Part shown: piece by piece, positions 23,722-56,775 of the stretch | How the letters are laid out: each line of letters opens with the position of its first letter | Numbering within the stretch: the first letter of the stretch is position 1 | DNA from: Polytrichum commune | Taxonomy: Eukaryota; Streptophyta; Polytrichopsida; Polytrichales; Polytrichaceae | DNA: 64,000 bases | Direction: 5' to 3' | Assembly: GCA_950295325.1 (NCBI GenBank) | Contig: OX485803.1 | Span: 21,328,001-21,392,000, forward strand | Translations under genes and position numbers: made by a program | Notes under the pieces: generated by a model | Told to the model about the DNA's origin: nothing | The model's database searches: none | The model's input: only the letters and a program-made list of their open reading frames with translations

Positions 23722-24053
23722 ACACTTCCACTCGATCGAGTGGAAGTGGCCAGTGCCTTGCGCTTGCGTGTGGCCAGGGCCTTGCGCTTGCGTTTGGCCA
23801 TGGCCCTGGCCACTTCCACTCGATCGAGTGGAAGTGGCCAGTGCCTTGCGCTTGCGTGTGGCCATGACCATGGCCCTAGCCACTTCCACGCCACTTCCAC
23901 TCGATCGAGTGGAAGTGGCCAGTGCCTGGCACCTGCCTTTGGGCCTGGCCCTGGCCACTTCCACGCCACTTTCACTCGATCGAGTGGAAGTGGCCAGTGC
24001 CTGACACCTGCCTTTGGGCCTGGCCCTGGCCACTTCCACTCGATCAAGTGGAA
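23722..24053. repeat. Palindromic minisatellite in gene B intron 1, core TTCCACTCGATCGAGTGGAA
   Basis: Five units of about 60-75 bp, each with the palindrome extended by CAC/GTG (the last decayed to CGATCA) and followed by CCAGTGCCT plus CTTGCGCTTGCG or GCACCTGCC spacers. The same 20-bp palindrome occurs once in each of two downstream introns of the same gene (53537 and 55353). It shares CCACTCGATCGAGTGG with the array at 10.6-11.2 kb but has different outer arms. Confidence 0.9.
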
Positions 24054-24128
24054 GTTTCTCTTGAATGAGAGTTGCATGAATTGTTTAAACCCTACACCCA
24101 TATTAATCTATTTATTGTTTCCATCCCC

Positions 24129-24137
24129 ATTGCAGGT
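24129..24137 (+). other. Left target-site duplication of the MULE (ATTGCAGGT)
   Basis: Identical to 52027-52035. It covers the splice acceptor CAG|GT of gene B intron 1. Nine bp is the usual duplication length of Mutator-like elements. Confidence 0.85.
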
Positions 24138-24350
24138 GGGAAACTCAAGTATGTGAGCGTAGAGCGGAGAGCGGAAAATTTAGATTTTGTTGGGTAATTT
24201 TAGGAGAAGCAGTGCCTATTTCCGTGGAATTAGAGATACTTTGAATTCTATATTTGGAAAGGTACCCCCATTCCCGTGGACATAATAACCCAGAATTGTT
24301 TGAGAAACCAACGGATCCTATAGGCGTGGAAGATTGCATTTGTTATCAAA
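24138..24350 (+). repeat. Left terminal inverted repeat of the MULE
   Basis: Starts GGGA, then the long identical block from 24149. Beyond about 24,176 the match to the right end is patchy, with TTCCGTGG-type motifs repeated (TTCCGTGG, TTCCCGTGG, GGCGTGG). Confidence 0.75.
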
Positions 24351-24525
24351 CATCTTATAGTATATGTTTTCAAATGTATCATATTAAATTAGGGCTGACG
24401 TCACCAAATTGAAATCAAAATACCATACACAAAATATTTTATTGGTCAACAAAATGTAGCCAACCTCAAGACTTACAAAAATGGGTAGTTAGTTAAAATA
24501 GCTATATACTCTAGTTTAGGGCCAT

Positions 24526-24834
24526 CTACACCCTATCTGCCGGGCATGTCCAATATGGGTAAAATGATCCAAAGAACATGCCATAAAACTCCGTCGCACC
24601 ATAACAGCCTTCCAATTCAGTCCTTAGCTTAGCCAAAGACCTCAAAGACAAATCCCCCAAGTCCAACCTTAGAATCCTTTTGGAAATTTTTGAGGTGACG
24701 TGCCGGCTCTTTGAGAACAACATGAAGTTCAATTTAAAAAGTTTGACGAGGTTATGTTCGCGTGCCAAACAAAACTTCCAATTGCTATATAGCAATTGGG
24801 ATTGGAAGACGGCCAATGTGATTAGTGTGCACAA
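24526..24834 (-). CDS. Doubtful 102-codon open frame near the left MULE end
   Basis: Open on the minus strand downstream of gene A. Part (LDLGDLSLRSLAKLRTELEG) has protein-like composition, but no domain is recognised. It could be a decayed exon. Confidence 0.2.
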   Translation of the reverse strand: MCTLITLAVFQSQLLYSNWKFCLAREHNLVKLFKLNFMLFSKSRHVTSKISKRILRLDLGDLSLRSLAKLRTELEGCYGATEFYGMFFGSFYPYWTCPADRV

Positions 24835-25118
24835 CCATTAAATAAACCATCCACACTAATAGAAAATATGGTCTCCCTATAACTAAGATCTCACACTAAG
24901 AGCCGAGAGCTAGATTGTTTTGTGACTAGAAGTTAAGAGATCCGAACGATGAAGAAAAAATAAAGAATGCAATGCGGGTTGACATTATGAATATGAAATA
25001 ATGGAGAGAAAGAATGAAACTTGCGCTGGATATCAAAAATAAAACCAACACACAACTTTTATTAAAGCCGGATAACAACAACAAACGGAGTTATAATCTC
25101 CAAAACCAAAATGATAAA

Positions 25119-28100
25119 CTAAGGGCTTGGAGAACATTCCCTATCACTCTCCTCACCCTCATTTGCTTCTAACAAGAAAAGATTTCGTGTTCTACGCGAG
25201 AAATGACGAACGCGAGGAGGAGATGGGGACTCCGCCTTCGCAAAACAATCCGCCATTGCACTAGCATACGGGGGAAGCTCAAACGGCTTCGGAGGACTTG
25301 AAAACATGTCTCGACGAATGACTGCGACCTCCGCTGGCTCTCTAAACACCCAAGCAAAAGGATTAGAAACATGATGACACTAGAAAATGAGAATTTGAAA
25401 TCAAGGCAAACTTGGCAAAATATAGAAAGCAAACTTACGCACAAAGGAATCCGAATGCCCTCTTGGTCATCTTTTGAGGACGATCAAAGATAGATATAGA
25501 CGGTGCGGCAACTGAGCGAGATATACGCGCAGGCTGGGGATCGCGCATGGGGAGTAGGAGTGAATTGAAAATGACGGGGTCACTCTCAAGGGCCACAATA
25601 TGCCGCTCAAGGGAGCGACATGCTGTAATCGAACCACCTAAAGCAACGAGAGGTAAAATGTTAGTATGAAAACTAGTCAATGAAAAATAATGGAAAATTC
25701 AAAGTAAGGATGAAGTTGAAAAAGAAGGCGTACCTATACCACATTGCTAGTCCATAATAACATCATTCTTGTCGGTGAGAGTAGCGAGAAGGATGGAAAA
25801 AAAAACATGATGCTTCTCACGGGCACCTTGCCAAGGTACCCCATCACTGCGCATCGCCTGGCTCTTTTCATCGGTGAAGGTATTCAACCATCCATCTCGT
25901 TGGAGGTTGTAACCATACTCTTGTATGGCCTCCTCCCGCACTCTAAGAATGGAGTTAACACGAACAAGAACTTTGATGCTGAACTTCCGAGTCTGCAACA
26001 ATGAAAATGAAATGGAATTGAAATTGAATTGAAATTGAAATGATAAGCAATACGGAAGGGGAAGAGAGGGAGACTTGCTTACCACTCCAGAGGGAACAAC
26101 GGGAGATTGGAGGTCCAAATCATTCATTCCAAACCAATCTTCCGCGACGTAGAAGTCATAAGTGTGTGCCCAATCAAAAATACTCCTAGAAACACTGGCA
26201 CTCGCACAATGGGCAAGAACAAGGACACCATGATCATAGAGGTTAGATTTCGCAAATGCAAAAATACACTCATAGTATGATTCATGGAGCTTGTTCCAAG
26301 CAGGAACATCAGTGGAGATGTTCGGCACCGGCAAATTCTCGGGAATGTCGGCGAAGAGCAAATCGAGGCCCTTGTGAGTTGTAGTCGAGGTGTTCACACG
26401 GGAACGACCTGCCCCAACCTGCAATTGAAACTTCATGAGAAAACAAAAAGGAAAGAAATAAGCAAAGCAAAGGAAAAAAAATTGAGAATTGACGAAGACA
26501 AGTATACAAACCTTGGCAATGAACTCTTGGATGCGGGTATATGCGGGAAGGGGACCTCTGGCAACCTCGGAATCCAACATTAGTTGAACCATGTCCACAT
26601 TTTCGATGAGGGAAAGCGTGTTAGGAGCATCCGAAGAGGTGGCACTGGTATCCAAGAGAGCGGCCTTCCTCTTGCGAGGCAAAGAGAGGAGAGAAGTGCC
26701 ACTATGAGATGGAGTGGCAAGAGATTGTGGATGAAATGCAGATGGAGTAACAGAGGGGGCAAGAGAGGGAGCAACGGAGGGAACGATAGACGGACTGTGT
26801 GGGAGGGTGGGTGGCTCAACCGGGGTCTTAGAAGCAGACCGAGTGAGAACTTGGGAAGATGCTTGAGTGGCGGTCTTCTTTGCTCTGCCCTTTCTCCTTG
26901 GTGCCTTAGAAGGAGGAGGGGGAAGCTCAACGATGTCAGGCTCCTCCAAGGTAACAATGTTATCATCCGGAGCACTACCCACAAGGCTAGCAAACAAAGC
27001 CTTCTCTTCCCCGGGGACAAATCCTGCAGCACAATCCAAGTACCATCCACCACCTTGCAAGTGCAATTCGGAGAACTTGTTTGTTTGCGCGGTCGTGTAC
27101 ACGCAGAGGCTAGAAAAAATATTCACCCAGTCCGAGAGGTAGTCCGGCAAGGAAGATGAGGCCAATGCATTCTTCACAACCAATTCTCTCATGATATACC
27201 TACATGACAAAACAAGAATGTAAGAAAACCAAGAAAACGAGCAAGAAATGAAATTAAGGAGAGGTGCAAAGTGGAGGATAGATGTATTACCGATAGGCCA
27301 CACGCTTGATAGCGAGAGTCCCCTCCTCGAACTCCAAGAGATTATCACCTTTGACAAAGGTGATGTCAGGCTTATCGCCGAGGTAAGGCTTGAAGGCCTT
27401 GTCCCAAAGGACAATCCGCCAATGATCAACGTACTCACGAGGGCGCAAGATAGTTTCTGATGCGTCCCAATCAATGTCGACGGAGAGGCTCTCCTCTAAG
27501 GTCTCAATTTCAACCGCGACTTCCTTCTCCAACTACAGAGAGAGAGATGATTAGATATGAGATAAATAGAATAGAGGAAAATGAAAATGAAGAAGGTCGA
27601 GGAATGGATTTACCTGAGCCCAGAAGGACGCCTTGTGTAGCTAGTCGTCCAAAGCCCTCTCCCTCATAGGCTTGTCCTCGGGGAACTTGTCATCTAACCT
27701 TTCACGAAGGGGGGCGTTCCACCAGTAAAGCCACTTAGCTTTGAATGAAGTTTCGACCGGGCATGTGACAATTTTTTGCAATTTTTCAATTGTCATGTCC
27801 GTCGAAGAGAACTCATTAAAATGGCGGTCAATCTGTGCACAAAATAAAAATGATTTGAATTCAAAAGAGTAATAGAGTTGAAGAGTGATTTGGATGAATT
27901 GCGTTCAAGAGTGATTTGAATTTAAAAGAATACCTCATGAAAGAAATCCTCTTCATTGTCAGGGTGTGCAACGGATATGTACTTCTCAAAAGAACGGGCC
28001 CGAATACTTTTGATTGTCCTCTCCTGGGCCTTGGTCATAACATTCCAAATCTCAGTGGCCGACCTCTCCGCAATGGGTGTGGTCTCACGGTAATGTCTCA

Positions 28101-29307
28101 CTGCAAGGTCTGCTTGAGCCGAAATGTCTCTCTGCAAGAAATGACCTTGTGAGTTCATATAATCGGCATGGAAATTATCTATGTTGGAAGCTCTAAATGA
28201 TTGAATGTACAAAACTATACCTTGTAAAGAAACTTAACGAACACATCCGCGGTCAAGGTGTACTAAGTTGGACGACTCTCCTTTTATCTTCTCGCATGCT
28301 TTGTAATCAGATGGCGATATGAGATCCTTGAAGGTGGACAACTCTAACCTTCCAAAAGTGCGGATTCGAAGGAGCTTGGTTGGAATGTTTGCCTTGACAT
28401 AATCATGCTCGGTTGACCTGAGAGAAAATATGTGAGGAACGTGAGGTAAAAAGAATGAAAAAGAATTGAAATAAAAATGAAAAATGAATGAAAAAATGGA
28501 GTGAGCTTACCAATTAATGTCGCTCATGGCATTGAGAAATACACCGGTGTATCCTCTAGGGTCAACAACAATGCAATCCACCGAGATATGCCAACTCTTG
28601 TTATCGGCGTGGTGGTTATTGATGTGTCTCCACCAAGCGGTGAGACGATGATTGCCTTCCCAGACAAAGAACATCTTCCCGGTGAAATGTGCAAGATCCG
28701 GATCCTCCTTGAGCTTGGCGTCAAATTCTGCAGAGGCCTCTTGCCAGAGAGGGCTCCAAGAGGCCATAATGCCAGGGGGAATGGGGAGGTCCACGGGAAC
28801 GTCGTTGAAGGCAGACACATAAAGAACCCGATCACCCTCTCGGTATCCCATTACAAATTCACATTCCAAGCGCTGCACCTCAACCTCACTGATAGGACGG
28901 ACGAGAGGGAGGGCTCACAAGCGGCACAAAGGAATGGATAAGCGGGACTTACAGGTTGGCTTAATCTGGAGGCGTTGGATAACACCAATGGAGTCCTCCT
29001 TTTGTGATTTCCGAAGCTCAAGCTCACACACCACGGGATCCGTGTCGGCAACTGCTTGAACAGCATCTTCGCTCATTGCGAGAGCCTAACAAAAACACAA
29101 ACAATAAAACCATGCTTAGAAAGCTAGAACTCAAAAAACTTGCTCAACAAATTACTCAACAACTATCCAACTCACCTTTACTTGTAATGGGCCCTGCGAA
29201 TTGAGACTCTCAACCTGCACAGCTTCAACTTCAACCGCGGGGGCCGTAAGAACAACATCCTCTCCAGATTGGGGTTGCGATTGCGCAACCTGTGAAGAGT
29301 CCATATC
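25119..29307 (-). pseudogene. Gene A, exons 3-14: ParB-like domain plus amino-methylase-like domain
   Basis: Exons on the minus strand, each with GT-AG borders: 29307-29176, 29085-28953, 28888-28511, 28417-28221, 28131-27934, 27832-27614, 27532-27291, 27199-26512, 26418-26083, 25992-25734, 25637-25439, 25341-25119. Exon 5 has FVWEGNHRLTAWW, like the G-x-x-R/A motif of ParB/Srx nucleotide-binding domains. Exon 10 carries a basic, Ser/Pro-rich nuclear-type linker (APRRKGRAKK). Exons 11-13 resemble N4/N6 DNA amino-methylases: GVPWQGAREKHHVFF, VIMD-stop-QCGI then GGSITACRSLERHIVALESD, matching an AdoMet-binding motif I and following acidic residue. No clear DPPY is seen. Damage: TAG at 27641-27643 (exon 8), TAG at 25747-25749 inside motif I, a frame loss between exons 4 and 5 and another near 28.26 kb. 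Exons 1-2 lie at 45-46 kb. Confidence 0.72.
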
Positions 29308-30311
29308 CTAAGAACATGGAAAAAATGAGAATTTTACAAAGAAAAGTCAATAACTTCGTAACTATAAAGAAACAAATCCTCACAAAAACAATACAAGGCC
29401 GAGAGCAAACTACAAATGGAAATGGCCGAATGCTAAGTCAAGTGGTCAACTCTAGCACTAACCTACCTACGAATGAGAGGCCTCGGATCTGAGGCCTCTT
29501 TTCCTACCTCCTCCTTATGCACTACCCAAAAGAAAAAGGCCGAGAGAAATCTTATGTGAACATAGTAGTTTGACTTTTCAAGCCCATACATTGTCTCCAA
29601 AATGAGGCCTCGGATCCGAGGCCTCTTCACAAACCTCCTACTCATATAGTACCCAAAACAAGAAGGCCGAGAGCAATCTTACACGAACATAACATTTTGA
29701 TTTTTCTAGCATAAAATTGATACAAACATGAGGCCTCGTATCCGAGGCCTCTTCCCAAAACACATACTTATTCACTACCCAAAACAAGAAGGCCAAGAGC
29801 ATTCAAAAATGAACATAAGATTTTCATTTTTCAACCACATAACACAAAAACGAGGCCTCAGATCTGAGGCCTCTTCACAAAGTACCTACTTATGCACTAC
29901 CCAAAACAAGAAGGCCAAGAGCATTCAAAAATGAACATAAGATTTTCATTTTTCAAGCACATACCTTGACACAAAAATGAGGCCTCGGATCCGAGGCCTC
30001 TTCACAAAGTACCTACTTATGCACTACCCAAAACAAGAGGGCCAAGCGCATTAAAAAATGAACATAACATTTTAACTTTTCATGCACATACCTTGACACA
30101 AAAATGAGGCCTCGGATCCGAGGCCTCTTCCGAATGCCCCTCCTTATGAAATACATACTACAGAAAATGGCCGAGAGAATTCAAAAATGAACCTAACATT
30201 TTCATTTTTCAAGCACACAACCTGATTCAAAAATGAGGCCTCGGATCTGAGGCCTCTTCCAAATGCCCCTCCTTGATGATTTTAAAACCTAACCAATTTA
30301 CTTGTTACATG

Positions 30312-30800
30312 GCTCACGGGTGTTCACCCGTGAGGTTCACATTTGATGATGTTCCAGGGGAGGTCACTGCATTGCCAAGTTGCATCACCAAAATGGGTCA
30401 AAAGTTTCTCAATTTTTTTTGGGAGGTAGATATACATGATATCTATTACGGAGTAAAAAAATATGACCAAATTTGATGACCATATTTTTCTAGAAAACAT
30501 ACCATTTCTACCTAGAATGACGCAGAATTCAACTAAAACAATTACTAGGAAAAATGAAGATGACAAAAAATTTCAAAAAAATATACAAAAGATATAATCA
30601 ATGGTTGTGAATATAGAGAAAACAAATCATAATTTAAAAAAATATTTGACATGGAGACATCTCCCCGTGATGATGCTAAATCCTACCCAAATTACCTATT
30701 ACATGGCCCACGGGCGTTCGCCCGTGGGGCACACATTTGATGATGTTAAAACCTAACCAAGTTACTTGTTACATGGCCCACGGGCGTTTGCCCGTGGGGC
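30312..30800. repeat. Three GC-rich hairpins, CCCACGGGCG-TT-CGCCCGTGGG type
   Basis: Copies at 30312-30334 (CTCACGGGTGTTCACCCGTGAG, arms changed in compensation), 30706-30730 and 30776-30800, each preceded by TTACATGGC. A fourth is at 44048-44072. They sit at the borders of the uniform satellite block. Confidence 0.75.
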
Positions 30801-31987
30801 ACAAGGCAGAGAGCAAGGAACCAAAAAAGCAAGAAAGTTGACATTCTATTAGTTTGAGAAATCAAGAACCTCACCTCTCTCAAAACCCTACCTTTCACAT
30901 ACTCAAACTTACACAAATATGAGGCCTCGGATCCGAGGCCTCTTCCTATGGCTCCCACTTATGCACTACCCAATAGAAGAAATGGCCGAGAGCAAGGAAT
31001 CAAGAAAGCAAGAAAGTTGACATTCCATTAGTTTGAGAAATCAAGAACCTCGCCTCTCTCAAAACCCTACCTTTCACATACTCAAACTTACACAAATATG
31101 AGGCCTCGGATCCGAGGCCTCTTCCCCTAGCTGCTTCTTATGCACTACACAAAAAAAGACAAGGCCGACAAAAATTGATGTGCACATAACATTTTGATTT
31201 TTCAAGCACAAACCTACCCACAAATAAGAGGCCTCGGATCCGAGGCCTCTTCCTATGGCTCCCACTTATGCACTACCCAATAGAAGAAATGGCCGAGAGC
31301 AAAGAATCAAGAAAGCAAGAAAGTTGACATTCCATTAGTTTGAGAAATCAAGAACCTCGCCCCTCTCAAAACCCTACCTTTCACATACTCAAACTTACAC
31401 AAACAAGAGGCCTCGGATCCGAGGCCTCTTCACAAACCTCCTACTCATGTAGTACCCAAAACAAGAAGGCCGAGAGCAATCTTACACGAACATAACATTT
31501 TGATTTTTCTTAAATAAAATTGACTCAAACATGAGGCCTCGGATCCGAGGCCTCTTCCCAAAACACATACTTATTCACTACCCAAAACAAGAAGGCCAAC
31601 AACATGAAAAATGAACATTAGATTTTCAGTTTTCAAGCACATACCTGGACACAAAAATGAGGCCTCGGATCCGAGGCCTCTTCCCAAAACACATACTTTA
31701 TTCACTACCCAAAACAAGAAGGCCAAGAGCATTCAAAAATGAACATAAGATTTTTATTTTTCAACCACATACCTTGACACAAAAAAGAGGCCTCGGATCC
31801 GAGGCCTCTTCACAAAGTACCTACTTATGCACTACCAAAAACAAGAGCGCCAAGAGCATTCAAAAATTAATATAAATTTTTAATTTTTCAAGCACAAACC
31901 TTGACACAAAAAAGAGGCCTCGGATCCGAGGCCTCTTCCCAAAGCTCCTACTTATGCACTTAACAAAATACAATCCCCCCCCCCCCC

Positions 31988-33140
31988 CCGCAGCTTCAGA
32001 CCTCCATATCTTCCACGTCTGGTCTCCGAATCTAACAATCAACCACTCTATCGTCATCTACATGAAATGTAGATGCCGATGGACACCTCACTTGCCCCAT
32101 TTGGGCAAAAATAAAGGAAGTTATGCCTGTTTAAACATTCGCAGTCCCGGGAGCCACTCCCAGGGGACTGCTGATCGAGGGCACTAAAAGGAGGCCTCGG
32201 ATCCGAGGCCTCATTTTCAAACTAGTGTACATACTCAAAAACAAGCAAAGTGCCTCATTCATACAAGCTATACGTTGAATCAAAAAACCTCAAGTGGCCT
32301 CGGATCCTAGGGCTCACACACAAAGTAATTTACGTACTCCAAACCAACCATAGTGCCTCATCCGTACACTAGTTTTGGAACACATAAAAGAGGCCTCGGA
32401 TACGAGGCCTCTTCTCCTAGCTCCTACATATGCACTTAACAAAACACATTTCCCCCCCCCCCCGGCAGCTTCAGACCTCCATATCGTCCACGTGTGGTCT
32501 CTGAATCTAACAATCAACCACTCTATCGTCATCTACATAATATGTAGATGCCGATGGACACCTCACTTGCCCCATTTGGGCAAAAATCAAGGAAGTTATG
32601 CCTGTTTAAACATTCCCAGTCCCGGGAGCCACTCCCTGGGGACTGCTGATCGAGGGCACTAAAAGGAGGCCTCGGATCCAAGCCCTCATTTCCAAACTAG
32701 TGTACATACTCAAAAACAAGCAAAGTGCCTCATTCATACAAGCTATACGTTGAATCAAAAAACCTCAAGTGGCCTCGGCTGAGAGGCCTCGGATCCGAGG
32801 GCTCACACACAAAGTAATTTACGTACTCCAAACCAACCATAGTGCCTCATCCGTACACTAGTTTTGGAACACATAAAAGAGGCCTCGGATCCGAGGCCTC
32901 TTCTCCTAGCTCCTAGATATGCACTTAACAAAACACATTTCCCCCCCCCGGCAGCTTCAGACCTCCATATCGTCCACGTGTGGTCTCTGAATCTAACAAT
33001 CAACCACTCTATCGTCATCTACATGAAATGTAGATGCCGATGGACACCTCACTTAACCCATTTGGGCAAGAAATCAAGGAAGTTATGTCTGTTTAAACAT
33101 TCGCAGTCCCGGGAGCCACTCCCTGGGGACTGCTGATTGA
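31988..33140 (+). repeat. Three copies of the structured ~190-bp repeat
   Basis: Copies begin at about 31988, 32464 and 32947, each behind a run of 9-13 C and containing CATCTACAT...ATGTAGATG, TTGCCCCATTTGGGCAA (third copy TTAACCC...) and CAGTCCCGGGAGCCACTCCC. They are part of a higher-order unit of about 480-490 bp that also carries GGCCTCGGATCCGAGGCC. A diverged fourth copy is at 13.2 kb. Confidence 0.8.
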
Positions 33141-33639
33141 GGGCACTAAAAGGAGCCCTCGAATCCAAGGCCTCATTTTCAAACTAGTTTACATACTCAA
33201 AAACAAGCAAAGTGCCTCATTCATACAAGCTATACGTTGAATCAAAAAACCTCAAGTCGCCTCCGCCGAGAGCCCTCGGATCCGAGGCCTTACACACAAA
33301 CTAGTTTACATACTCAAAACCAACCAAAGTGCCTCTTCCGTACACTTGTTTTGGAACACATAAAAGAGGTCTCGGATCCGAGGCCTCATTCACAAACTAG
33401 TTTACATACTCAAAACAAACCAAAGTGCCTCATCCGTACACTTGTTTTGGAACACATAAAAGAGGCCTCAGATCCGAGGCCTCATTCACAAACTAGTTTA
33501 CATACTCAAAACAAACCAAAGTGCCTCATCCGTACACTTGTTTTGGAACACATAAAAGAGGCCTCGGATCCGAGGCCTCATTCACAAACTAGTTTACATC
33601 CTCAAAAACAAGCAAAGTGCCTCATTCACACAAGTTATA

Positions 33640-36600
33640 CTTTGAATCAAAAAACCTCAAGTGGCCTCCGCCGAGAGGCCTCGGATCCGAGGCCTTACAC
33701 ACAAACTAGTTTACATACTCAAAACCAACCAAAGTGCCTCTTCCGTACACTTGTTTTGGAACACATAAAAGAGGCCTCGGATCCGAGGCCTCATTCACAA
33801 ACTAGTTTACATCCTCAAAAACAAGCAAAGTGCCTCATTCACACAAGTTATACTTTGAATCAAAAAACCTCAAGTGGCCTCCGTCGAGAGGCCTTGGATC
33901 CGAGGCCTTACACACAAACTAGTTTACATACTCAAAACCAACCAAAGTGCCTCTTCCGTACACTTGTTTGGGAACACATAAAAGAGGCCTCGGATCCGAG
34001 GCCTCATTCACAAACTACGTTACATACTCAAAACAAACCAAAGTGCCTCTTCCGTACACTTGTTTTGGAACACATAAAAGAGGCCTCGGATCCGAGGCCT
34101 CATTCACAAACTAGTTTACATCCTCAAAAACAAGCAAAGTGCCTCATTCATACAAGTTATACTTTGAATCAAAAAACCTCAAGTGGCCTGCGCCGAGAGG
34201 CCTCGGATCCGAGGCCTTACACACAAACTAGTTTACATACTCAAAACAAACCAAAGTGCCTCATCCGTACACTTGTTTTGGAACACATAAAAGAGGCCTC
34301 AGATCCGAGGCCTCATTCACAAACTAGTTTACATCCTCAAAAACAAGCAAAGTGCCTCATTCACACAAGTTATACTTTGAATCAAAAAACCTCAAGTGGC
34401 CTCCGCCGAGAGGCCTCGGATCCGAGGCCTTACACACAAACTAGTTTACATACTCAAAACCAACCAAAGTGCCTCTTCTGTACATTTGTTTTGGAACACA
34501 TAAAAGAGGTCTCGGATCCGAGGCCTCATTCACAAACTACTTTACATACTCAAAACAAACCAAAGTGCCTCATCCCTACACTTGTTTTGGAACACATAAA
34601 AGAGGCCTCAGATCCGAGGCCTCATTCACAAACTAGTTTACATACTCAAAACAAACCAAAGTGCCTCATCCGTACACTTGTTTTGGAACACATAAAAGAG
34701 GCCTCAGATCCGAGGCCTCATTCACAAACTAGTTTACATCCTCAAAACCAAGCAAAGTGCCTCATTCACACAAGTTATACTTTGAATCAAAAAACCTCAA
34801 GTGGCCTCCGCCGAGAGGCCTCGGATCCGAGGCCTTACACACAAACTAGTTTACATACTCAAAACCAACCAAAGTGCCTCTTCTGTAAACTTGTTTTGGA
34901 ACACATAAAAGAGGTCTCGGATCCGAGGCCTCATTCACAAAATACTTTACATCCTCAAAACAAACCAAAGTGCCTCATCCGTACACTTGTTTTGGAACAC
35001 ATAAAAGAGGCCTCAGATCCGAGGCCTCATTCACAAACTAGTTTACATACTCAAAACAAACCAAAGTGCCTCATCCGTACACTTGTTTTGGAACACATAA
35101 AAGAGGCCTCAGATCCGAGGCCTCATTCACAAACTAGTTTACATCCTCAAAACCAAGCAAAGTGCCTCATTCACACAAGTTATACTTTGAATCAAAAAAC
35201 CTCAAGTGGCCTCCGCCGAGAGGCCTCGGATCCGAGGCCTTACACACAAACTAGTTTACATACTCAAAACCAACCAAAGTGCCTCTTCTGTAAACTTGTT
35301 TTGGAACACATAAAAGAGGTCTCGGATCCGAGGCCTCATTCACAAAATACTTTACATCCTCAAAACAAACCAAAGTGCCTCATCCGTACACTTGTTTTGG
35401 AACACATAAAAGAGGCCTCAGATCCGAGGCCTCATTCACAAACTAGTTTACATACTCAAAACAAACCAAAGTGCCTCATCCGTACACTTGTTTTGGAACA
35501 CATAAAAGAGGCCTCAGATCCGAGGCCTCATTCACAAACTAGTTTACATCCTCAAAAACAAGCAAAGTGCCTCATTCACACAAGTTATACTTTGAATCAA
35601 AAAACCTCAAGTGGCCTCCGCCGAGAGGCCTCGGATCCGAGGCCTTACACACAAACTAGTTTACATACTCAAAACAAACCAAAGTGCCTCATCCGTACAC
35701 TTGTTTTGGAACACATAAAAGAGGCCTCAGATCCGAGGCCTCATTCACAAACTAGTTTACATCCTCAAAAACAAGCAAAGTGCCTCATTCACACAAGTTA
35801 TACTTTGAATCAAAAAACCTCAAGTGGCCTCCGCCGAGAGGCCTCGGATCCGAGGCCTTACACACAAACTAGTTTACATACTCAAAACCAACCAAAGTGC
35901 CTCTTCTGTAAACTTGTTTTGGAACACATAAAAGAGGTCTCGGATCCGAGGCCTCATTCACAAAATACTTTACATCCTCAAAACAAACCAAAGTGCCTCA
36001 TCCGTACACTTGTTTTGGAACACATAAAAGAGGCCTCAGATCCGAGGCCTCATTCACAAACTAGTTTACATACTCAAAACAAACCAAAGTGCCTCATCCG
36101 TACACTTGTTTTGGAACACATAAAAGAGGCCTCAGATCCGAGGCCTCATTCACAAACTAGTTTACATCCTCAAAAACAAGCAAAGTGCCTCATTCACACA
36201 AGTTATACTTTGAATCAAAAAACCTCAAGTGGCCTCCGCCGAGAGGCCTCGGATCCGAGGCCTTACACACAAACTAGTTTACATACTCAAAACCAACCAA
36301 AGTGCCTCTTCCGTACACTTGTTTTGGAACACATAAAAGAGGCCTCGGATCCGAGGCCTCATTCACAAACTAGTTTACATCCTCAAAAACAAGCAAAGTG
36401 CCTCATTCACACAAGTTATACTTTGAATCAAAAAACCTCAAGTGGCCTCCGTCGAGAGGCCTTGGATCCGAGGCCTTACACACAAACTAGTTTACATACT
36501 CAAAACCAACCAAAGTGCCTCTTCCGTACACTTGTTTGGGAACACATAAAAGAGGCCTCGGATCCGAGGCCTCATTCACAAACTACGTTACATACTCAAA

Positions 36601-41800: not shown

Positions 41801-44800
41801 GCCTTACACACAAACTAGTTTACATACTCAAAACAAACCAAAGTGCCTCATCCGTACACTTGTTTTGGAACACATAAAAGAGGTCTCGGATCCGAGGCCT
41901 CATTCACAAACTACTTTACATACTCAAAACAAACCAAAGTGCCTCATCCGTACACTTGTTTTGGAACACATAAAAGAGGCCTCAGATCCGAGGCCTCATT
42001 CACAAACTACTTTACATACTCAAAACAAACCAAAGTGCCTCATCCGTACACTTGTTTTGGAACACATAAAAGAGGCCTCAGATCCGAGGCCTCATTCACA
42101 AACTAGTTTACATACTCAAAACCAACCAAAGTGCCTCTTCCGTACACTTGTTTTGGAACACATAAAAGAGGCCTCGGATCCGAGGCCTCATTCACAAACT
42201 AGTTTACATCCTCAAAAACAAGCAAAGTGCGTCATTCACACAAGTTATACTTTGAATCAAAAAACCTCAAGTGGCCTCCGCCGAGAGGCCTCGGATCTGA
42301 GGCCTTACACACAAACTAGTTTACATACTCAAAACCAACCAAAGTGCCTCTTCCGTACACTTGTTTTGGAACACATAAAAGAGGCCTCGGATCCGAGGCC
42401 TCATTCACAAACTACTTTACATACTCAAAACAAACCAAAGTGCCTCTTCCGTACACTTGTTTTGGAACACATAAAAGAGGCCTCGGATCCGAGGCCTCAT
42501 TCACAAACTAGTTTACATCCTCAAAAACAAGCAAAGTGCCTCATTCACACAAGTTATACTTTGAATCGAAAATCCTCAAGTGGCCTCCGTCGAGAGGCCT
42601 TGGATCCGAGGCCTTACACAGAAACTAGTTTACATACTCAAAACAAAACAAAGTGCCTCATCCGTACACTTGTTTTGGAACACATAAAAGAGGCCTCAGA
42701 TCCGAGGCCTCATTCACAAACTAGTTTACATACTCAAAACAAACCAAAGTGCCTCATCCGTACACTTGTTTTGGAACACATAAAAGAGGCCTCAGATCCG
42801 AGGCCTCATTCACAAACTAGTTTACATCCTCAAAAACAAGCAAAGTGCCTCATTCACACAAGTTATACTTTGAATCAAAAAACCTCAAGTGGCCTCCGCC
42901 GAGAGGCCTCGGATCCGAGGCCTTACACACAAACTAGTTTACATACTCAAAACCAACCAAAGTGCCTCTTCCGTACACTTGTTTTGGATCACATAAAAGA
43001 GGCCTCGGATCCGAGGCCTCATTCACAAACTAGTTTACATCCTCAAAAACAAGCAAAGTGCCTCATTAACACAAGTTATACTTTGAATCAAAAAACCTCA
43101 AGTGGCCTCCGCCGAGAGGCCTCGGATCCGAGGCCTTACACACAAACTAGTTTACATACTCAAAACCAACCAAAGTGCCTCTTCCGTACACTTGTTTTGG
43201 AACACATAAAAGAGGCCTCGGATCCGAGGCCTCATTCACAAACTAGTTTACATCCTCAAAAACAAGCAAAGTGCGTCATTCACACAAGTTATACTTTGAA
43301 TCAAAAAACCTCAAGTGGCCTCCGCCGAGAGGCCTCGGATCCGAGGCCTTACACACAAACTAGTTTACATACTCAAAACCAACCAAAGTGCCTCTTCCGT
43401 ACACTTGTTTTGGAACACATAAAAGAGGCCTCGGATCCGAGGCCTCATTCACAAACTACTTTACATACTCAAAACAAACCAAAGTGCCTCTTCCGTACAC
43501 TTGTTTTGGAACACATAAAAGAGGCCTCGGATCCGAGGCCTCATTCACAAACTAGTTTACATCCTCAAAAACAAGCAAAGTGCCTCATTCATACAAGTTA
43601 TACTTTGAATCCAAAAACCTCAAGTGGCCTCCGCCGAGAGGCCTCGGATCCGAGGCCTTACACACAAATTAGTTTACATACTCAAAACAAACCAAAGTGC
43701 CTCATCCGTACACTTGTTTTGGAACACATAAAAGAGGCCTCAGATCCGAGGCCTCATTCACAAACTAGTTTACATCCTCAAAAACAAGCAAAGTGCCTCA
43801 TTCACACAAGTTATACTTTGAATCAAAAAACCTCAAGTGGCCTCCGCCGAGAGGCCTCGGATCCGAGGCCTTACACACAAACTAGTTTACATACTCAAAA
43901 CCAACCAAAGTGCCTCTTCCGTACACTTGTTTTGGAACACATAAAAGAGGCCTCGGATCCGAGGCCTCATTCACAAACTACTTTACATACTCAAAACAAA
44001 CCAAAGTGCCTCATAAAGACATGCCTAACCAAGTTACTTGTTACATGGCCCACGGGCGTTTGCCTGTGGGGCACAAGGGAGAGAGCAAGGAATAAAAAAT
44101 GGAAGAAAGTTGACATTCCATTAGTTTGAGAAATCAAGAACCTCACCTCTCTCAAAACCCTACCTCTCACATACTCAAACTTACACAAATATGAGGCCTC
44201 GGGTCCGAGGCCTCTTCCCCTAGCTCCTTCTTATGCACTACACGAAACAAGACAAGGCCGAGAGCAATTGATGTGCACATAACATTTTGATTTTTCAAGC
44301 ACAAACCTACCCACAAATAAAAGGCCTCGGATCCGAGGCCTCTTCCTATGGCTCCCACTTATGCACTATACAATAGAAGAAACGGCCGAGAGCAAGGAAT
44401 CAAGAAAGCAAGAAAGTTGACATTTCATTAGGTTGAGAAATCAAGAACCTCGCGTCTCTCAAAACCCTACCTCTCACATACTCAAACTTACACAAATATG
44501 AGGCCTCGGATCCGAGGCCTCTTGGCCTAGCTCGTTCTTGTGCACTACACAAAACGAGCCAAGGCCGAGAGCAATTGATGTGCACATAACATTTTGATTT
44601 TTCAAGCACAAACCTACCCACAAATAAGAGGCCTCGGATCCGAGGCCTCTTCCTATGGCTCCCACTTATGCACTACACAATAGAAGAAATGGCCGAGAGG
44701 AAGGAATCAAGAAAGCAAGAAAGTCGACATTCCATTAGTTTGAGAAATCAAGAACCTCGCCTCTCTCAAAACCCTACCTTTCACATACTCAAACTTACAC

Positions 44801-45066
44801 AAATATGAGGCCTCGGATCCGAGGCCTCTTCCCCTAGCTCGTTCTTGTGCACTACACAAAACGAGACAAGGCCGAGAGCAACATGATGTGCACATAACCT
44901 TTTGATTTTTCAAGCACAAACATACCTTTCCTGACATGTTCCTAAACCCAAATCAAGACAAGGCCGAAAGCAAGTCAAGCTGATATTCCAAATACTATGA
45001 GAAATCAAAGTGATAGAAAGCAAAAACGTTGGCGAACATAGCTTGGCCAAGATCCCGACACCTTAC

Positions 45067-46015
45067 CAGAATTTGGAGTATGCCCTCCACTGAAGCCCCT
45101 ATATTGGCGCCACTATCTTCCGAGGTCCCGTCCTCTGTCGGCGTTATTGGAGTGCTTCTCGAATCTCCGAGGTTTACTTGCGCCATTCCTCTCCCGCGGC
45201 CACACCCTCGCCTTGATGTTTGTTGTGTTCCGCCCGCCTTGCTTCGCAGAAATCTTGAAGCAGGGGTCACAACATCCACACTTAGGGTTTCTGCGCATGG
45301 GTCTCCTCCTTCAGCTCTTTCGCGGCCTCCCAACAAATTTGATTTCAGATCTTCCTTTGCCGCTTTCCTCTTGGACGCCTTCATTTTTTCTCTTGCTTGA
45401 ATCGTTGGTTGTCCCGACATCGGTTCTCGCTCTTCTAACGCCTTCTCAATTTGTTGTGCTACCTCCTTGTTGTCTTCTTCGTAGATATTTCCACTATCTC
45501 CACTCCCCCCCTCTTCCTATATTTAAGATAAAACAATGTTTATAACAATGATGACAAACCATAATATCTAAAAGAAAAGTTGTTTCACAGTTGAATATGT
45601 TCTACCATTTTCATTATGTGCTCAAACAACTGAATATATGGAGAACCCGAAGAATACGTACGACACTTGTAGAGTTTGTCTCTTCGCGTGAGTCCTCTTG
45701 GATGATGTCGTTTCCCAACTCCTCCACTTCTGCCATTGGTTGCGCTTTACTTCCGTCCGCCTCTTCTACAATCGGTGATAAATGAAAAGGCGGAATCCCA
45801 CAGTCTAGCCTCCACGAAGGTTTCCGCAGGTCCTTTATGCTTTGGCTCAAATCCTCGGGCGTCCCACGGCCCTCGATTGGCGCTTTCCTTGCCTGTGACT
45901 TTTGTGTCCTCACTGTTTTTCTCTTCTTATCAGTGTAATGTGTAGACGATCGCCTCCTCTTCTTTTTCTTAGATGGTTCCGTTGTTGGAGGTTGTGAATT
46001 GCCTATTTCCTTCAT
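45067..46015 (-). CDS. Gene A, exons 1-2: Lys-rich N-terminal region
   Basis: Exon 1 is ATG 46015 down to 45662 (118 codons, donor GTC|GTACGT). Exon 2 is 45516-45067 (150 codons, acceptor AAATATAG, donor CTG|GTAAGG). All borders are phase 0 and match the phase of the exon starting at 29307. The protein is highly charged, with nuclear-localisation-like clusters KKKKRRRSS and ASKRKAAKED and an RGCGRGRG patch, no catalytic domain. No stop or frameshift is seen here. Joining to exons 3-14 across the satellite intron is inferred from strand, splice sites and phase. Alternatively this is a separate short gene. Confidence 0.6.
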
Positions 46016-46335
46016 GTGTTCAACCCTCCCGCAATTCAGACCTATTCGCTCTATTTCCTTTCCACAACCTCACCACATCAAACTCACACATTGGAAAGAA
46101 AGTGAGCAATCGCATTCTTCTCAGTATATAATTGCAATACCTCCCGATGGGAGGCGCGCTTTACTATCTGACAACCATCTTTGTAATTAGGGGTATCTTT
46201 TTTTAGGATGCCTGACAGTTTTGTCTCCTTCCTGATATTCATGCGTATTTGTTTATAACTTCATCGTCATCACCATTCTTCTTCTCTATGCATCTTTGCA
46301 TCTTTGTTCCTTCACGTTTGCTTTCTCTGCCTTCA
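46016..46335. promoter_or_regulatory. Shared divergent promoter region of gene A and the transposase gene
   Basis: Only 320 bp separate the two divergent start codons (46015 minus, 46336 plus). A TATATAA lies at 46125-46131. No coding signal. A common control region is inferred. Confidence 0.4.
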
Positions 46336-48494
46336 TGGCTTCCACCTCAATTCTTCCTCCCGTCTCTGAGATGGCCGAACTTCGTTCACATGGCATCGGG
46401 GTCCCTATTATATTCCCCATTGGTGCACAAGGTATTGTTGTTGTCTCGGAGCTTCATCTTAGCATTAGGTTCTCTTTGAAAGCTAGTACAATATGGGTAG
46501 AGCGTGAGATCTACCATCCTGATACTGGATTGCTCGTTCATACCTTCCATGAGACCTCCAAGGTAACTGACAATGGCAATGTAGTGTGGGAGCTTGGCGC
46601 GGGAAAGTATAGGGTTTGTGGCTAGCCAGATTCTCAGATGGGAGTGTCAACAGAAATCCTTCCTCCTCTTCGATCATCCACTGTTGCCTTTAGCACACCT
46701 CCGGTAATAAGCGTCAAGACCGAGCCTGGTGTAGACAACGTTATAGACTTGTCTGATTCTTCGAGTGAAGATGTACCAGTGCATAAGGTTGCTGTCCATG
46801 ATTCCCCTCATTTGTTTCCCTTTGCATCCTACGTAACGCCTTCTCCATCTAGCTCTGTCCCTTCAACTCCTTCGGTCCCTACGTCTAAACCTCCTCAAAC
46901 TATTGTTCAATGTCTTCGTCGTCTTGGCTCTATGCCCGGTAGTAAGAACGTCCTCAAGAAAATAGATTACGATAAAATCAAAACCCAAGAAGTTAATCAC
47001 CTTCCCCCTCGTTTCGATGGCACCCAATTATTTGTCCTCCCTGCAGCAGAAGTCTCTTCATCTCAAACCAGGGCCAAGTCGTTGGACGGCATGGACAAGC
47101 AATATGATGGCCATGTTTGGACTAAGACTCAAACCACCAACATTACAAACGACGTTGGCCTTGCATTTCGTTCCTCTACCTGTGTTGGCCATCTCCAATG
47201 CCAAAACCCGAGTTGTGATTACCTTCAACGCGCCCATCGTACCTCTAAGGTCAATGACACAGAATTTGAAGGTTTCACTAAAGATCCTTTCCCTCTCTCT
47301 GGCTTTGTGCCATCCGGATCTACTCTTGTCTACAGGATCTGTAAAGAGCCTCCCAAATGCATTGCACTATGCGAGGCCAAAATCTTCTATGTCCATGGGA
47401 AGGTGTCATTCCAAAGAGCCTGCATTCATCTCGGTTCTCATCAACATCCAGTGAAGGTTGAAGACTGCAGAGACAGTCGGAAGCGTATCAATGCACTTCT
47501 TGAGGAGCACGTTGAACGTACGCCTCAAGCCACCCACAGCAAGATCGTCCTTGAAGCTAGCAAGGACATTGTTGGTGAGTTTCTCCTTTCTGGCGATAAT
47601 GACACACACCGTCTCTTCTCTTTAAAAGAGATTGAACCTGTTTTTGAGAGTTGTAGAGAGTTGAATTCCCCAAACCTTCGCTCTAAGGTTACCTCTTTCA
47701 AATATTTGCGGAGGTTTGGTGTTATGGATGGCATCGCAAAGCTCCAAGGCGTTAGCAATTGGGCCTACGTCCAACGGAACCAATTCCCAGGACAAGGTGA
47801 CGATACAGACAAGGTGTTCGTCTTCAAGATGTCGGAGGTTGGTCCTGGAAGTGGAGTGGATTTGGTTCGTCGGATGCAACCGGGTGGGGACCTGGAGAAC
47901 GCGTGGATGATGTCCGATCACGTGAAGTGGGTCAAAGGGTGGACCACCATGGCCGCTCATGTGTACACTACTAGAAAATCATGACCAAATCAACAAAAAA
48001 TCAACAGATCTTTGTCGATCTGGGCACTGCAATGACCGATTTCACTGATTTTTGAATTTTTGTAAAAATCAACAGTTTACTGCCTACATTTTTGTTGATT
48101 AGAATAGTACAATGACCAAATCAACAAAATTTTAGTAAATGTGGAATCTTTTTGGAATATTCTAAGATCTATTGGAATATTGTAAAATATTTTTAATTTT
48201 TTGCAATTTATGGTCTTGTAAATGTATGGGTATGGAAATAATTACGAATTCAAAGGTGTGTAAATATTATAAATATTATATTAGTTGATAGTTAATATTA
48301 TATATATATATATATATATTAATATGTATATGTATATGAATTAATATTAATATGTATAATATGTATATAATATATATGTATATAATATGTATGTATATAA
48401 TGTGTATATATATAATATATGTAACATATATGTATATAATATATGTATACAATATATGTAACATGTATGTATATAATATATAATATATAAATAT

Positions 48495-48780
48495 GTATAC
48501 ATTTACAGTAATTATATATAGTATATATTTACTGTAATTATATACAGTATATATTTACTGTAATTATATACAGTATATATTTACTGTAATTATATACAGT
48601 ATATATTTACTGTAATTATATACTGTATATATTTACTGTAATTATATACAGTATATATTTACTGTAATTATATACTGTAATTATATACTGTAATTATATA
48701 CTGTAATTATATACAGTAATTATATACTGTATATATTTACTGTAATTATATACTGTATATATTTACTGTAAATATATACA
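48495..48780. repeat. AT-rich minisatellite inside the CACTA element
   Basis: About ten units alternating TATATTTACTGTAATTATA and CAGTA/CTGTA, period about 26 bp with shorter 16-bp variants. It is preceded by TATATGTA-type simple repeats from 48,300. Confidence 0.85.
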
Positions 48781-48851
48781 TCAAGTAGGTAGTAAAGAGA
48801 AAATAGTGGCCTTATTCTAGAAAGGTTTAAAACACTCCACTTATATCATGT

Positions 48852-49056
48852 GTGATGTGATGACCTAGTGGTTAAGGCACATGTGTGGGTGTCACTAGGT
48901 GGAAGGTTCGATTCCCGTGGCCGACACCTTCGGCCTTGGCCTTGCCACCTATGTGAGTTGTAGGTAGTCTATACTTGTAGGTGAGGTATAGGTTGAGGGT
49001 TACTTAGGAGGGGTTAGGAATTGCAGATCTGACATTTATTCATTTTTTATTTTTTA
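48852..49056 (+). mobile_element. tRNA-derived SINE nested in the CACTA element
   Basis: A-box TGACCTAGTGGTTAAGGC (48860-48877) and B-box GGTTCGATTCCC (48905-48916), correctly spaced as an internal pol III promoter. A non-tRNA body and a T/A-rich tail (about 49035-49056) follow. It is not a functional tRNA: the arms do not fold and no anticodon loop is clear. Confidence 0.7.
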
Positions 49057-51043
49057 ATGTTATATATATATATATATATATAATAAGTTTTTTTTAAAAA
49101 ATATTTTTGTGACCATATCAACAGAAAAAATCAACAAAATTGTGTTACATCATGTCCAGGTCAACGCGTCCTAAGTGACAACCGCGACCAACGCCTTTCT
49201 GTTGATCCGGACGCAGAATTTTCTACTAGTGGTACGATGGGACTTATCAACGGGTCATGACCATTTCATGTTGTGATTTCCAATCGGAGGATAAGGATGC
49301 CCAAGTTCTCTTCTGGCAGAACCTCAACCACGTCATGGCCCGACACGGTATCCCACATCCAAACTTTATAGGCTTCATGGCGGACAGTGCCCAAGCCAAT
49401 TGGAACGCTGTTCGCATTGTGTATGGTTCAGGGGATCCCAAAGTTCCAATGGAGGGTCGTGAGCGCACTTGTTTTTTCCATTGGAAACAATCGCTCGAAA
49501 AACATACAAAATCGTATATAAAGCATGAGTTACAAGACCAACATAGACATCTTTGCTTTCAATATCGAAATGTGTCATCTATGGAAGAGGCTGAGACTAG
49601 GTACCTAGCTATCAAGGCTTGGTGGGCGTCATCGAATTGTACAAGTGAGGACGGTCTCAAGCATCTTCAGCTCTGGCTTGCTTTTTGGCACTTCCGCTAC
49701 CTTCAATGGGGTGGTTTCATGGAACTGGTACATCTCCTTCATAATTCATTATTGGTTTTTCTTGGATTCGATTTCCTCTCTCTGTACATTTATATTAATA
49801 CTTGATTTCTCCAATCAGGAAAAAATTTTAACCCAAGACCAATTGGCCGAGATGCCGTCGTGCAATCTTGCGGAATCCGTCCACAACAAGTGGCTTCAAG
49901 CCTCCGGCAACAAGGGTGGAGATCTATACGTGGCTACGGTTGACGACTACATTCGTGTCTTCTTACAAGTTGTTGCATACTACCAGTTCCTTAAAGGTGG
50001 AATTGGCGGAGATGGTCCAAGCAAAGAAGAACTAAAGCTCAGGGGTGCTCAACGTCGAGCTCAGCGTACTGGCGACCCCACAGTGTTGCAGAAGGTCTTG
50101 CTTGACATGTCCGGTGGGGAAGAATTTTGCACTCGCGATCCACACCTTGAGGGCGCCGAGGTGTTTGGATCGCAGAAGCGAAGACCAGATACTCCAATTG
50201 GTGATGATGGCGAGACCCACCGCCCCGATACCGTGAACTTCTCTCGCCCTCCCCCCGGTAAGCGTGTCACTCGATCTCAACCAGAAACACTACCCACTAT
50301 CATTGAGGAGTCTTCCCCCTCTGTACAAGAGGTTCAAGTACCTTCATTTGCAGGACTTGGTTTCCAGCGTGTCACTGCCGTGCAAGAAACCAAAGTAGAT
50401 GTCTCTCTTTGGCATATTGCCCGCATACCCTATACGTCTAGGAAGTCTTGTTGGGCTAATCATGCGGGCACGAAGAAGAAGTGCATCGCAAGAATCGTCA
50501 CTAATAATAAGAGCATCCCTGCGCCGACCTACACCGGTATGTGGCATCATTACAAACTCCAATCTCTGAAGTTAACTATGATCCCTCAACCGGGATTTGG
50601 TTGCATTATCACACTGCAGTCCAAATCAGAACCCCAACCACCGATCTACCAAGTGACAGTGAGTTCTCTTCCAGAGTGCAACTGCGCATACTTCTTGGAT
50701 ATGATTTCCAAGTTCAGCCGCAAACGAAATTCTTATCTAAATTGTAAGCATTTGTATTACATTTTCATCAAGGTTTCTAATTTGGATGCGGAAGTGAATT
50801 TGTTCATTCACGCCCCGACATTTAGCTTCAACGAAGTCAAACTTATCCTCGAAGGGGGTCTTTTGACAAAGTCTACTTCTTAGGATTTATCTCAGCCTAG
50901 CAGTACTTTGGGCTATGATATATGTGTCCATTTCTGGACCTCTTGTGAAGCAATAATTGATTAATATAATAAAGGTATAATCTCAATGATTATTTTTATT
51001 TGCTTCAAAATTTGTATTACAATGCTTCCTATGTCTATCAACT

Positions 51044-51515
51044 CTATTTCCGTTTTGCATACTTCTTAGATGATTGCGAGGGAGGTGGACTCGGTCGAAG
51101 CAAATCCATATAAGAAACTATCTTATCTCTCTTTCGATCCTTCAGCGGAAGATGATGCGGCGTCATTCCTCTCATCCGTTCGCGAAATGAAAGAGACTTC
51201 GAAGATTCCCCTTCCACCTTCACCTCCTCCTCCTCCGTTTCGTTCGATTTGTCTTCATCCAAATCAGCATCCTTCTCCGGCACATCTTCCTGCATTTTTT
51301 TCTTTTTTCTCATATTGTTTTTGCTCCTCCCGCACCCTCCACCTCCATGCTTGTGTAGACTGCGAAAATGGAGTCAGTTCGTAGTCATCACTACTTCGAT
51401 TTCCAGCAGCAAACTCAAATTCCGGCGATGAATTAAAGAGAATATGAGGATCTCCTAGACTTCTAATTTCTTTCTCCCATCCTAATCCAGCAAACATGTC
51501 TCTCTCATCTCCCAT
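51044..51515 (-). pseudogene. Small charged protein convergent to the transposase
   Basis: ATG 51515 opens MGDERDMFAGLGWEKEIRSL in one frame. A neighbouring frame from about 51,313 carries a strongly charged tail (KKKKMQEDVPEKDADLDED, then EEEE and a basic C-terminus) to the stop at 51044. Joining them needs a one-base shift near 51.32 kb, so this copy is either frameshifted or has a tiny missed intron. No domain recognised. Its position at one end, convergent with the transposase, recalls the mudrA/mudrB arrangement of maize MuDR; sequence similarity to mudrB is not claimed. Confidence 0.45.
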
Positions 51516-51829
51516 TGTGTGCAACTGTATATACAATCATGTTGGGTATGAGTCCAATTTATAATTTATTCGGCCACAAACAATAATTGCTAAAGTCCAA
51601 GCTATAGAATAGACTCACATATAAGACAAAGAGAAAAGTGATGAATAAAAACTAAGCAAGTTTATTATTTTGATTATTTTGTATTTTGATTGACTCATTC
51701 TTCAATTATACCAATCTCAAAAAATCCATTTTCATTGATTTTTTCTTGTAGTCATCCTTGGTTTTAATAATTCAACCACCTCACGGTTTCCAAACTTAAT
51801 GAGACCATTTCAAATTCAGGGTTTTTATT

Positions 51830-52026
51830 TTATTTTATGACCTATACATCCCACGGAAATAGGTCCAATTTTTTTACTATTATTGTCATATTCTGGAATA
51901 TTCTTGGTATATTCTTGGCTATTTTGAAATATCCTAATTTTAGTATGACAAGTTTACTATTTTTATTTCCTCTACGCTCTCCAAATCTCCGCTCTCCGCT
52001 CTACGCTCACATACAAGTGTCGTCCC
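51830..52026 (-). repeat. Right terminal inverted repeat of the MULE
   Basis: Read on the minus strand it starts GGGACGACACTTGTATGTG and matches the left end exactly through GAGCGTAGAGCGGAGAGCGG. CCTATTTCCGTGG follows about 165 bp in. Confidence 0.75.
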
Positions 52027-52035
52027 ATTGCAGGT
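52027..52035 (+). other. Right target-site duplication; regenerated splice acceptor of gene B
   Basis: ATTGCAGGT, identical to 24129-24137. CAG|GT here lies two codons before gene B's ATG (52037), so an acceptor still exists next to the coding region. Confidence 0.8.
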
Positions 52036-53536: not shown

Positions 53537-53558
53537 GTTCCACTCGATCGAGTGGAAC
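53537..53558. repeat. Single intronic palindrome TTCCACTCGATCGAGTGGAA (G/C-extended)
   Basis: A perfect 22-bp palindrome within the intron that starts at 53455 in gene B; same sequence as the array in intron 1. Confidence 0.9.
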
Positions 53559-55352: not shown

Positions 55353-55372
55353 TTCCACTCGATCGAGGGGAA
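55353..55372. repeat. Single intronic palindrome, one mismatch
   Basis: TTCCACTCGATCGAGGGGAA inside the 137-bp intron 55306-55442 of gene B. Confidence 0.85.
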
Positions 55373-56700: not shown

Positions 56701-56706
56701 AATAAA
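56701..56706 (+). terminator. AATAAA poly(A) signal of gene B
   Basis: 137 bp after the gene B stop codon, in a T-rich context. Confidence 0.4.
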
Positions 56707-56775
56707 GTCATGTTTTCCCTTCATACTTCAATGTCATGTTTTATGCAGTCTTTAATGATCTGTTGCACTTCACAG

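Follow-up and report, generated by a model that had tools for sequence, protein, structure and literature searches.

The window analysed here is a stretch of 64,000 nucleotides from Polytrichum commune (C1:21328001-21392000), within a 407.8-Mb genome of 64 contigs. It contains a 27.9-kb transposon (24138-52025) that is one copy of a Mutator-like element (MULE) family. Between the inverted ends of this element lie a ParB-like/amino-methylase-like gene (MT), a palindromic satellite, a transposase gene and two further genes, C and D (Table 1). Analysis of other copies confirmed that this is a real, multiplied giant transposon with a methylase-like gene and a palindrome array.

Ends, insertion site and transposase of the window element

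The 5' end of the element starts with GGGAAACTC at 24138, and the opposite strand starts with GGACGACAC at 52025. The original prediction, made from the window sequence, of GGGA-starting inverted ends sharing a long exact block was borne out, with 27 of 27 bp identical between the ends (24149-24175 vs. 51988-52014). The target-site duplication had been given as 9 bp; it is 10 bp long (CATTGCAGGT, at 24128-24137 and 52026-52035), the C at 52026 having been assigned to the element. Duplications of 10 bp were also found in all five of the other copies read (AGCTCTACAC, ACACGATTGA, CAATAATGAT, GTTCGGGTAA and CTATCCTCGC), and in all six copies these copy-specific repeats bracket GGGAAACTC...GTGTCGTCC. 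When six 5'-end loci, including that of the window, were aligned at the junction, the flanks were unrelated up to the common first base. Across the family, the inverted repeats are GG-ended. Moreover, one copy (c1_65M) lies inside a tandem array, so that the array itself provided an empty-site test: its flanks, joined minus one 10-bp copy, aligned over adjacent units that lack the element, with identities of 93-96% in most alignments and 87-92% in some. For the window insertion, the predicted empty-site sequence is ...CCCCATTGCAGGTCATGG.

Some MULE families have no terminal inverted repeats; in this family, both inverted repeats (the 27-bp block, and the common 5' start in six loci) and duplications within the 8-11-bp range of MULEs (10 bp in the six copies read) were found. 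The transposase was examined through its relatives, of which a protein search recovered 59. By Pfam, a SWIM zinc finger (PF04434, E=6.8e-5) was detected in one of 26 relatives, the full-length P0058, most of the others being without the C-terminal exon, and Transposase_mut appeared at E=0.034 only, also in one of the 26. The finger pattern CxC...CxH was seen by eye in the open transposase copies; the motifs DGTY, MADSA, CxxH and NLAE were likewise identified by eye. The best PDB fold match of the predicted P0058 structure was the ISCth4 transposase (E=6.5e-5, probability 1.00), which we take to be a member of the IS256 family. Judged by this structural model and the motifs, the transposase is of the IS256/Mutator-like DDE type; the SWIM finger, the ISCth4 fold match, the inverted repeats and the 10-bp duplications together fit a MULE.

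The window copy is dead, its transposase gene carrying an in-frame TAG, a 1266-bp CACTA element and a 393-bp in-frame deletion. None of the five other copies read has this CACTA element in its transposase gene. An intron was ruled out as the explanation of the gap in the window gene, since the inserted sequence is a CACTA element flanked by a 3-bp duplication and the reading frame continues once the two sides are joined. This CACTA element contains an AT-rich minisatellite, and an element related to it at about 90% identity is found immediately outside the 3' end of c1_65M. An open two-exon transposase frame was found in c1_13M and c1_65M (1193 amino acids in c1_65M); the gene is open in c3_40M with its intron acceptor lost, has a stop in c7_5M and has a frameshift in c4_47M. 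None of the six copies read has both MT and transposase intact together with all splice sites. The copies are 2-3% apart in the MT exons.

Gene order and spread of the family in the genome

The genome was searched with 300-bp queries from either end, and the best 40 of 270 candidate 5' ends and the best 40 of 412 candidate 3' ends were scored. Among the scored 5' ends, 32 of 40 face a scored 3' end at a distance of 12.8-34.6 kb (median 17.5 kb), compared with 0.08 facing pairs within 40 kb expected by chance. This spacing makes the family giant as a rule, end-paired copies being most frequently 16-19 kb long. The 32 pairs comprise 31 distinct 3' ends, and the pair at C5:43357836, whose 3' end is common to another pair, was dropped. 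Eight of the scored 5' ends and nine of the scored 3' ends were unpaired, perhaps because only these best-scoring subsets were considered.

The five other copies read are 16.6, 34.5, 33.8, 18.0 and 27.6 kb long. In all six copies the order is 5' end, MT (-), satellite, gene C (-), transposase (+), gene D (-) and 3' end. Departures from it are a truncated gene D and an additional, inverted segment of gene C in c1_13M, a 17-kb insertion in gene C of c7_5M, and a 220-bp deletion in MT of c4_47M. A giant MULE lineage with a resident methylase-like gene, as originally proposed, was thus found in six copies read through, with their duplications and both genes.

A further sample comprised the 25 end-paired copies that remain when the six read are taken from the 31 distinct pairs. 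From each, two 900-base pieces were taken where MT and the transposase were expected to lie (duplications were read in the six copies only). The MT piece was present in 23 of 25 copies, the transposase piece in 20 and both in 18; pieces missed may reflect deletions or shifts caused by insertions. The reverse approach started from MT, with the best 40 of 100 genome candidates scored. Of these matches, 32 had a listed 5' end no more than 8 kb away, and for 31 an inverted 3' end on the list lay at most 60 kb away; listed ends stood on both sides of 26, at least one correctly oriented end accompanied 37, and neither was found for three. Paired ends enclosing both genes, as the original prediction anticipated, are therefore the pattern in 18 of 25 sampled copies, and neither ends at unrelated distances nor a consistent separation of the two genes appeared. 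Capture of MT as a one-off event was ruled out by its presence in most copies sampled.

The methylase-like gene and the palindromic satellite

MT is present on the minus strand, in a model of 11 exons rather than the 14 first given. Reading the model through 28220-28132 was ruled out because the alignment of the six copies indicates an intron at this position, and the TAA stop of that read-through model is an artefact of a one-base insertion. In the window, exons 2, 5 and 9 of MT contain stops, TAG replaces TGG in exon 3, and the one-base insertion is present. Its frame is open in c3_40M, encoding 1087 amino acids; two internal stops were found in c1_65M and four in c1_13M, and the window, c4_47M and c7_5M copies are frameshifted.

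Both labels given to MT were tested. The methylase label stood, weakly, for the C-terminal part, which matched DpnA (E=0.006) and CcrM (E=0.2) in the PDB, the CcrM alignment covering the motif IV position. Among phage sequences, tblastn found 21 records (best E=0.04), and all 10 matches listed are annotated methylases. Motif I (FxGxG-like) is kept as DWQCGxGGS. In active amino-methylases, the catalytic motif IV is [DNS]PP[YFW] (DPPY). The corresponding string of MT is FADIPEN in six copies (behind a frameshift in c7_5M) and FADVPEN, FADISEN or FADILEN in five divergent loci, FAD[IV][PSL]EN overall. Because this motif is without PP and the aromatic residue, though its residues are steady, methylase activity of MT appears doubtful from its sequence; the original description as a DNA-modifying enzyme is unproven, motif IV being non-canonical in every copy examined. 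The ParB label comes down to one motif, VWEGNHRLTAW, which we take to be ParB-like. No ParB fold emerged from Pfam, and no meaningful match from the PDB; a single-sequence model of the exon-2 part was of low confidence (pLDDT 41). These results speak neither for nor against the ParB label. A whole-protein search with MT returned 0 of 7994 scored, and neither viral contigs nor Rfam and tRNA scans gave anything useful.

Selection on MT was assessed at two depths. A genome search with the methylase core, in which the best 150 of 1956 candidates were scored, yielded 237 exon matches; those listed range from 97% down to 64% identity, and 17 of them have an internal stop. Divergent MT loci in this search have 64-86% identity. 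Exon 8 was compared codon by codon among c3_40M and five divergent loci, giving 15 non-independent pairs. Synonymous divergence (dS) was below 0.5 in six pairs, and the ratio of nonsynonymous to synonymous divergence (dN/dS) was 0.11-0.27 in five of these; five saturated pairs gave 0.09-0.17 and four were not computable. At least one divergent locus, L083, is a pseudogene. These codon patterns show apparent purifying selection on MT lineages in the genome. Within the young family, sites shared among six whole genes were synonymous at 18 of 37 in MT (p=0.006) and at 9 of 16 in the transposase (p=0.015), and MT singletons also had a synonymous excess (67 of 183, p=0.006). Some MT lineages (L081; matches over query 107-224; 82-88% identity) read exons 9 and 10 unbroken, as if the intron had been lost, and L083 (about 66%) keeps the exons separate.

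The palindromic satellite ascribed to the element by the original prediction is present, its first site lying 173 bp upstream of the MT start codon. Units with different spacers have in common a perfect 22-bp palindrome, GAGGCCTCGGATCCGAGGCCTC, with GATC at its centre, and the window satellite holds 41 exact copies. When up to six mismatches were allowed, sites numbered 159 in the window, 37 in c4_47M, 39 in c7_5M, 63 in c1_13M, 46 in c1_65M and 37 in c3_40M, and 192 of the 381 pooled sites were exact; none was found in the window flanks or in one shuffled copy. With about 4000 22-mers tested per copy, the palindrome was the commonest satellite 22-mer in five of six copies and the third commonest in c1_65M; in the window its lead over the best other 22-mer was small (132 vs. 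110). Information was 1.73 bits per base inside the palindrome compared with 0.50 and 0.65 beside it, the inside value being favoured because sites were picked by the match itself. Other satellites built on perfect GATC-centred palindromes lie at 23713-24060 and 10700-11207 (CCACTTCCACTCGATCGAGTGGAAGTGG; GATCCACTCGATCGAGTGGATC), and such satellites may be common in the Polytrichum commune genome.

Gene D, frameshifted in the window, is open in three of four other copies examined. The right flank (52034-58610), perhaps another accessory-rich element, contains long plus-strand frames. One of them encodes INGQHSVAASR, which resembles ParB when inspected by eye, and another, further on, has a phosphatase domain of the NLI-interacting-factor type (PF03031, E=4.6e-11). 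Elsewhere in the window, two adjoining frames occupy 7408-9468, the second (8551-9468) with DUF7869 (PF25273, E=2.2e-42), and a 400-amino-acid minus-strand frame at 61548-62747 has a SAM domain (PF00536, E=1.7e-9). Similarity to MT in the window flanks was not convincing (best E=0.064).

Table 1. Features of the MULE copy in the window (positions in the window)
Feature	Position	Strand	Remarks
Left target-site duplication, CATTGCAGGT	24128..24137	.	10 bp; compared with other copies
5' terminal inverted repeat (GGGAAACTC...)	24138..24175	+	27 bp identical to 3' end; AGAGCGG repeat number differs among copies
MT, ParB-like/amino-methylase-like gene, 11 exons in model	25119..29304	-	Pseudogene in window copy
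MT exons 1-6	29304-29176, 29085-28511, 28417-28221, 28131-27934, 27832-27614, 27532-27291	-	
MT exons 7-11	27199-26512, 26418-26083, 25992-25734, 25637-25439, 25341-25119	-	
MT exon 8, motif IV position FADIPENL	26083..26418	-	
MT exons 9-10, methylase motif I position (DWQCGxGGS...ALESD)	25439..25992	-	W is a stop in window copy
Palindromic satellite, several unit lengths sharing GAGGCCTCGGATCCGAGGCCTC	29477..44926	.	Tandem Repeats Finder (TRF)
Gene C, at least two exons	44995..46069	-	Reading frame; RGRGRGRG stretch in other copies
Transposase gene, two exons	46335..50883	+	Window copy: intron at 49728-49818, stop codon TAG (codon 97), CACTA insertion and, near 50569, in-frame loss of 393 bp
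Non-autonomous CACTA (En/Spm-like) element, 1266 bp	47966..49231	.	Duplication GTA at 47963-47965 and 49232-49234
Gene D, single exon, about 154 amino acids	51044..51515	-	Frameshifted in window copy
3' terminal inverted repeat	51988..52025	-	Block shared with 5' end
Right target-site duplication, CATTGCAGGT	52026..52035	.	10 bp; compared with other copies

Possible role of the palindromes and relation to known transposons

We favour, with a probability of about 0.55, the reading that this is a giant MULE family with constant cargo (MT, two small genes and the palindromic satellite) in which an element protein binds the palindromes. MT, or another protein of the element, would bind in dimeric form to the palindromes that lie upstream of MT; such binding would alter the chromatin or methylation of the element, and the predicted outcome would be protection from host silencing, regulation of its own promoter, or both. 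By analogy, the model would parallel the action of VANC proteins on the repeated motifs of VANDAL MULEs. The element may in this way mark or protect its own DNA.

Self-methylation is the main rival of this reading. MT would be an active adenine or N4-cytosine methylase marking element DNA, for example at the palindrome GATC, and the marks would attract the transposase, keep it away or set its timing, in a manner similar to Dam methylation, which sets the timing of some bacterial transposons. The weak methylase signal (DpnA and the phage matches), the retained motif I, the GATC at the palindrome centre and the purifying selection on exon 8 all speak for it, as does the suggestion published for the Sola1 relative (PMC12477816, in the part of that paper available). 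However, none of the four motif IV versions (FADIPEN, FADVPEN, FADISEN and FADILEN) has PP and the aromatic residue, and we consider this rival unlikely. Every lineage examined departs from the canonical motif IV, which makes a protein that binds but does not catalyse no less likely than self-methylation. A tentative and equally improbable extension is a partition- or anti-silencing-like system, in which a ParB/methylase-fold protein without a canonical catalytic motif would coat its own palindrome arrays like parS clusters, shielding or positioning the MULE in chromatin, with MT lineages and palindromes co-evolving.

The null explanation is that slippage produced the satellite as a passive side effect, the palindrome being its most slippage-prone core, and that the accessory genes aid transposition otherwise. 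Array length and unit structure do vary among copies, GATC-centred palindromic satellites also occur in the window flanks, and in the window the palindrome is barely ahead of the best other 22-mer. Set against this, the palindrome is common to units with different spacers and leads in five of six copies, and conservation ends at its edges (at sites chosen by that match); we regard passive slippage as rather unlikely.

Several results weigh against the favoured reading. The MULE/SWIM transposase of the original prediction is present between the ends, broken in the window copy; Pfam found neither a transposase nor a SWIM match in the window protein. The P0058 structure model is reliable only in part and mostly of low confidence (mean pLDDT 56), and the TM-scores of its ISCth4 match are low (0.14/0.31). 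Pfam also gave no match to whole MT. In the remaining low-dS pair of the exon 8 comparison, dN/dS was 0.89, on four changes. Within the young family, the sampled pieces gave 6 of 12 synonymous in 27 MT copies (p=0.08) and 2 of 9 in 26 transposase copies (p=0.76, omega-like 1.35), neither a significant excess, and the codon test at this depth is mixed.

Pack-MULEs, with variable, host-derived cargo, resemble the present family in being MULEs with extra coding sequence; here, in contrast, the cargo is constant and the transposase is kept. VANDAL elements are smaller than the giant MULE described here. They encode VANC anti-silencing proteins, whose motif is the 9-base YAGTATTAY, whereas here the motif is a 22-bp palindrome, and VANC is not described as methylase-fold in the available part of the source (PMC5735166). 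A SET domain is of the histone-methylase type, and one turns up in the MULE literature. In a survey of MULE groups, as far as its accessible text goes, the transposase often has a SWIM finger and the elements have terminal inverted repeats and 8-11-bp duplications; its table includes FAR1, PMD and an ovarian-tumour gene as well as that SET domain, the latter in a single oomycete group, and the word methyltransferase is absent from the main text (PMC6446971). Our family resembles these groups in transposase, inverted repeats and duplication, and differs in its size, four genes and satellite (PMC6446971).

The closest precedent is Sola1-1_Ec32 of Ectocarpus, a 21.5-kb DNA transposon with relatives cited in green and red algae; according to the available part of its description, it encodes a protein of 1104 amino acids that combines ParB-like and N4C/N6A methyltransferase domains and whose transcription runs against that of the transposase (PMC12477816). 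Both elements are giant and carry a ParB-like/methylase accessory protein opposite to the transposase, a likeness of MT that is by domain description only. The transposase there is of the Sola1 type and here of the Mutator type, and that part of the paper mentions neither a palindromic satellite nor a motif IV variant (PMC12477816). Given this precedent, a class of giant transposons with a ParB-methylase accessory protein has already been described; no MULE carrying a ParB-methylase-type gene was found in the literature searched, as far as the sources were accessible. Three features are new here: the carrier is a MULE, it has an array of palindromes, and motif IV is unusual.

Taken together, these data indicate that the little-known ParB-methylase-type proteins of giant algal transposons also travel and multiply with Mutator elements and stay under selection. 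The family moreover supplies a candidate target for them, the 22-bp palindrome, of which 37-159 copies occur per element, and the function of such proteins thereby becomes directly testable by binding assays and long-read methylation data.

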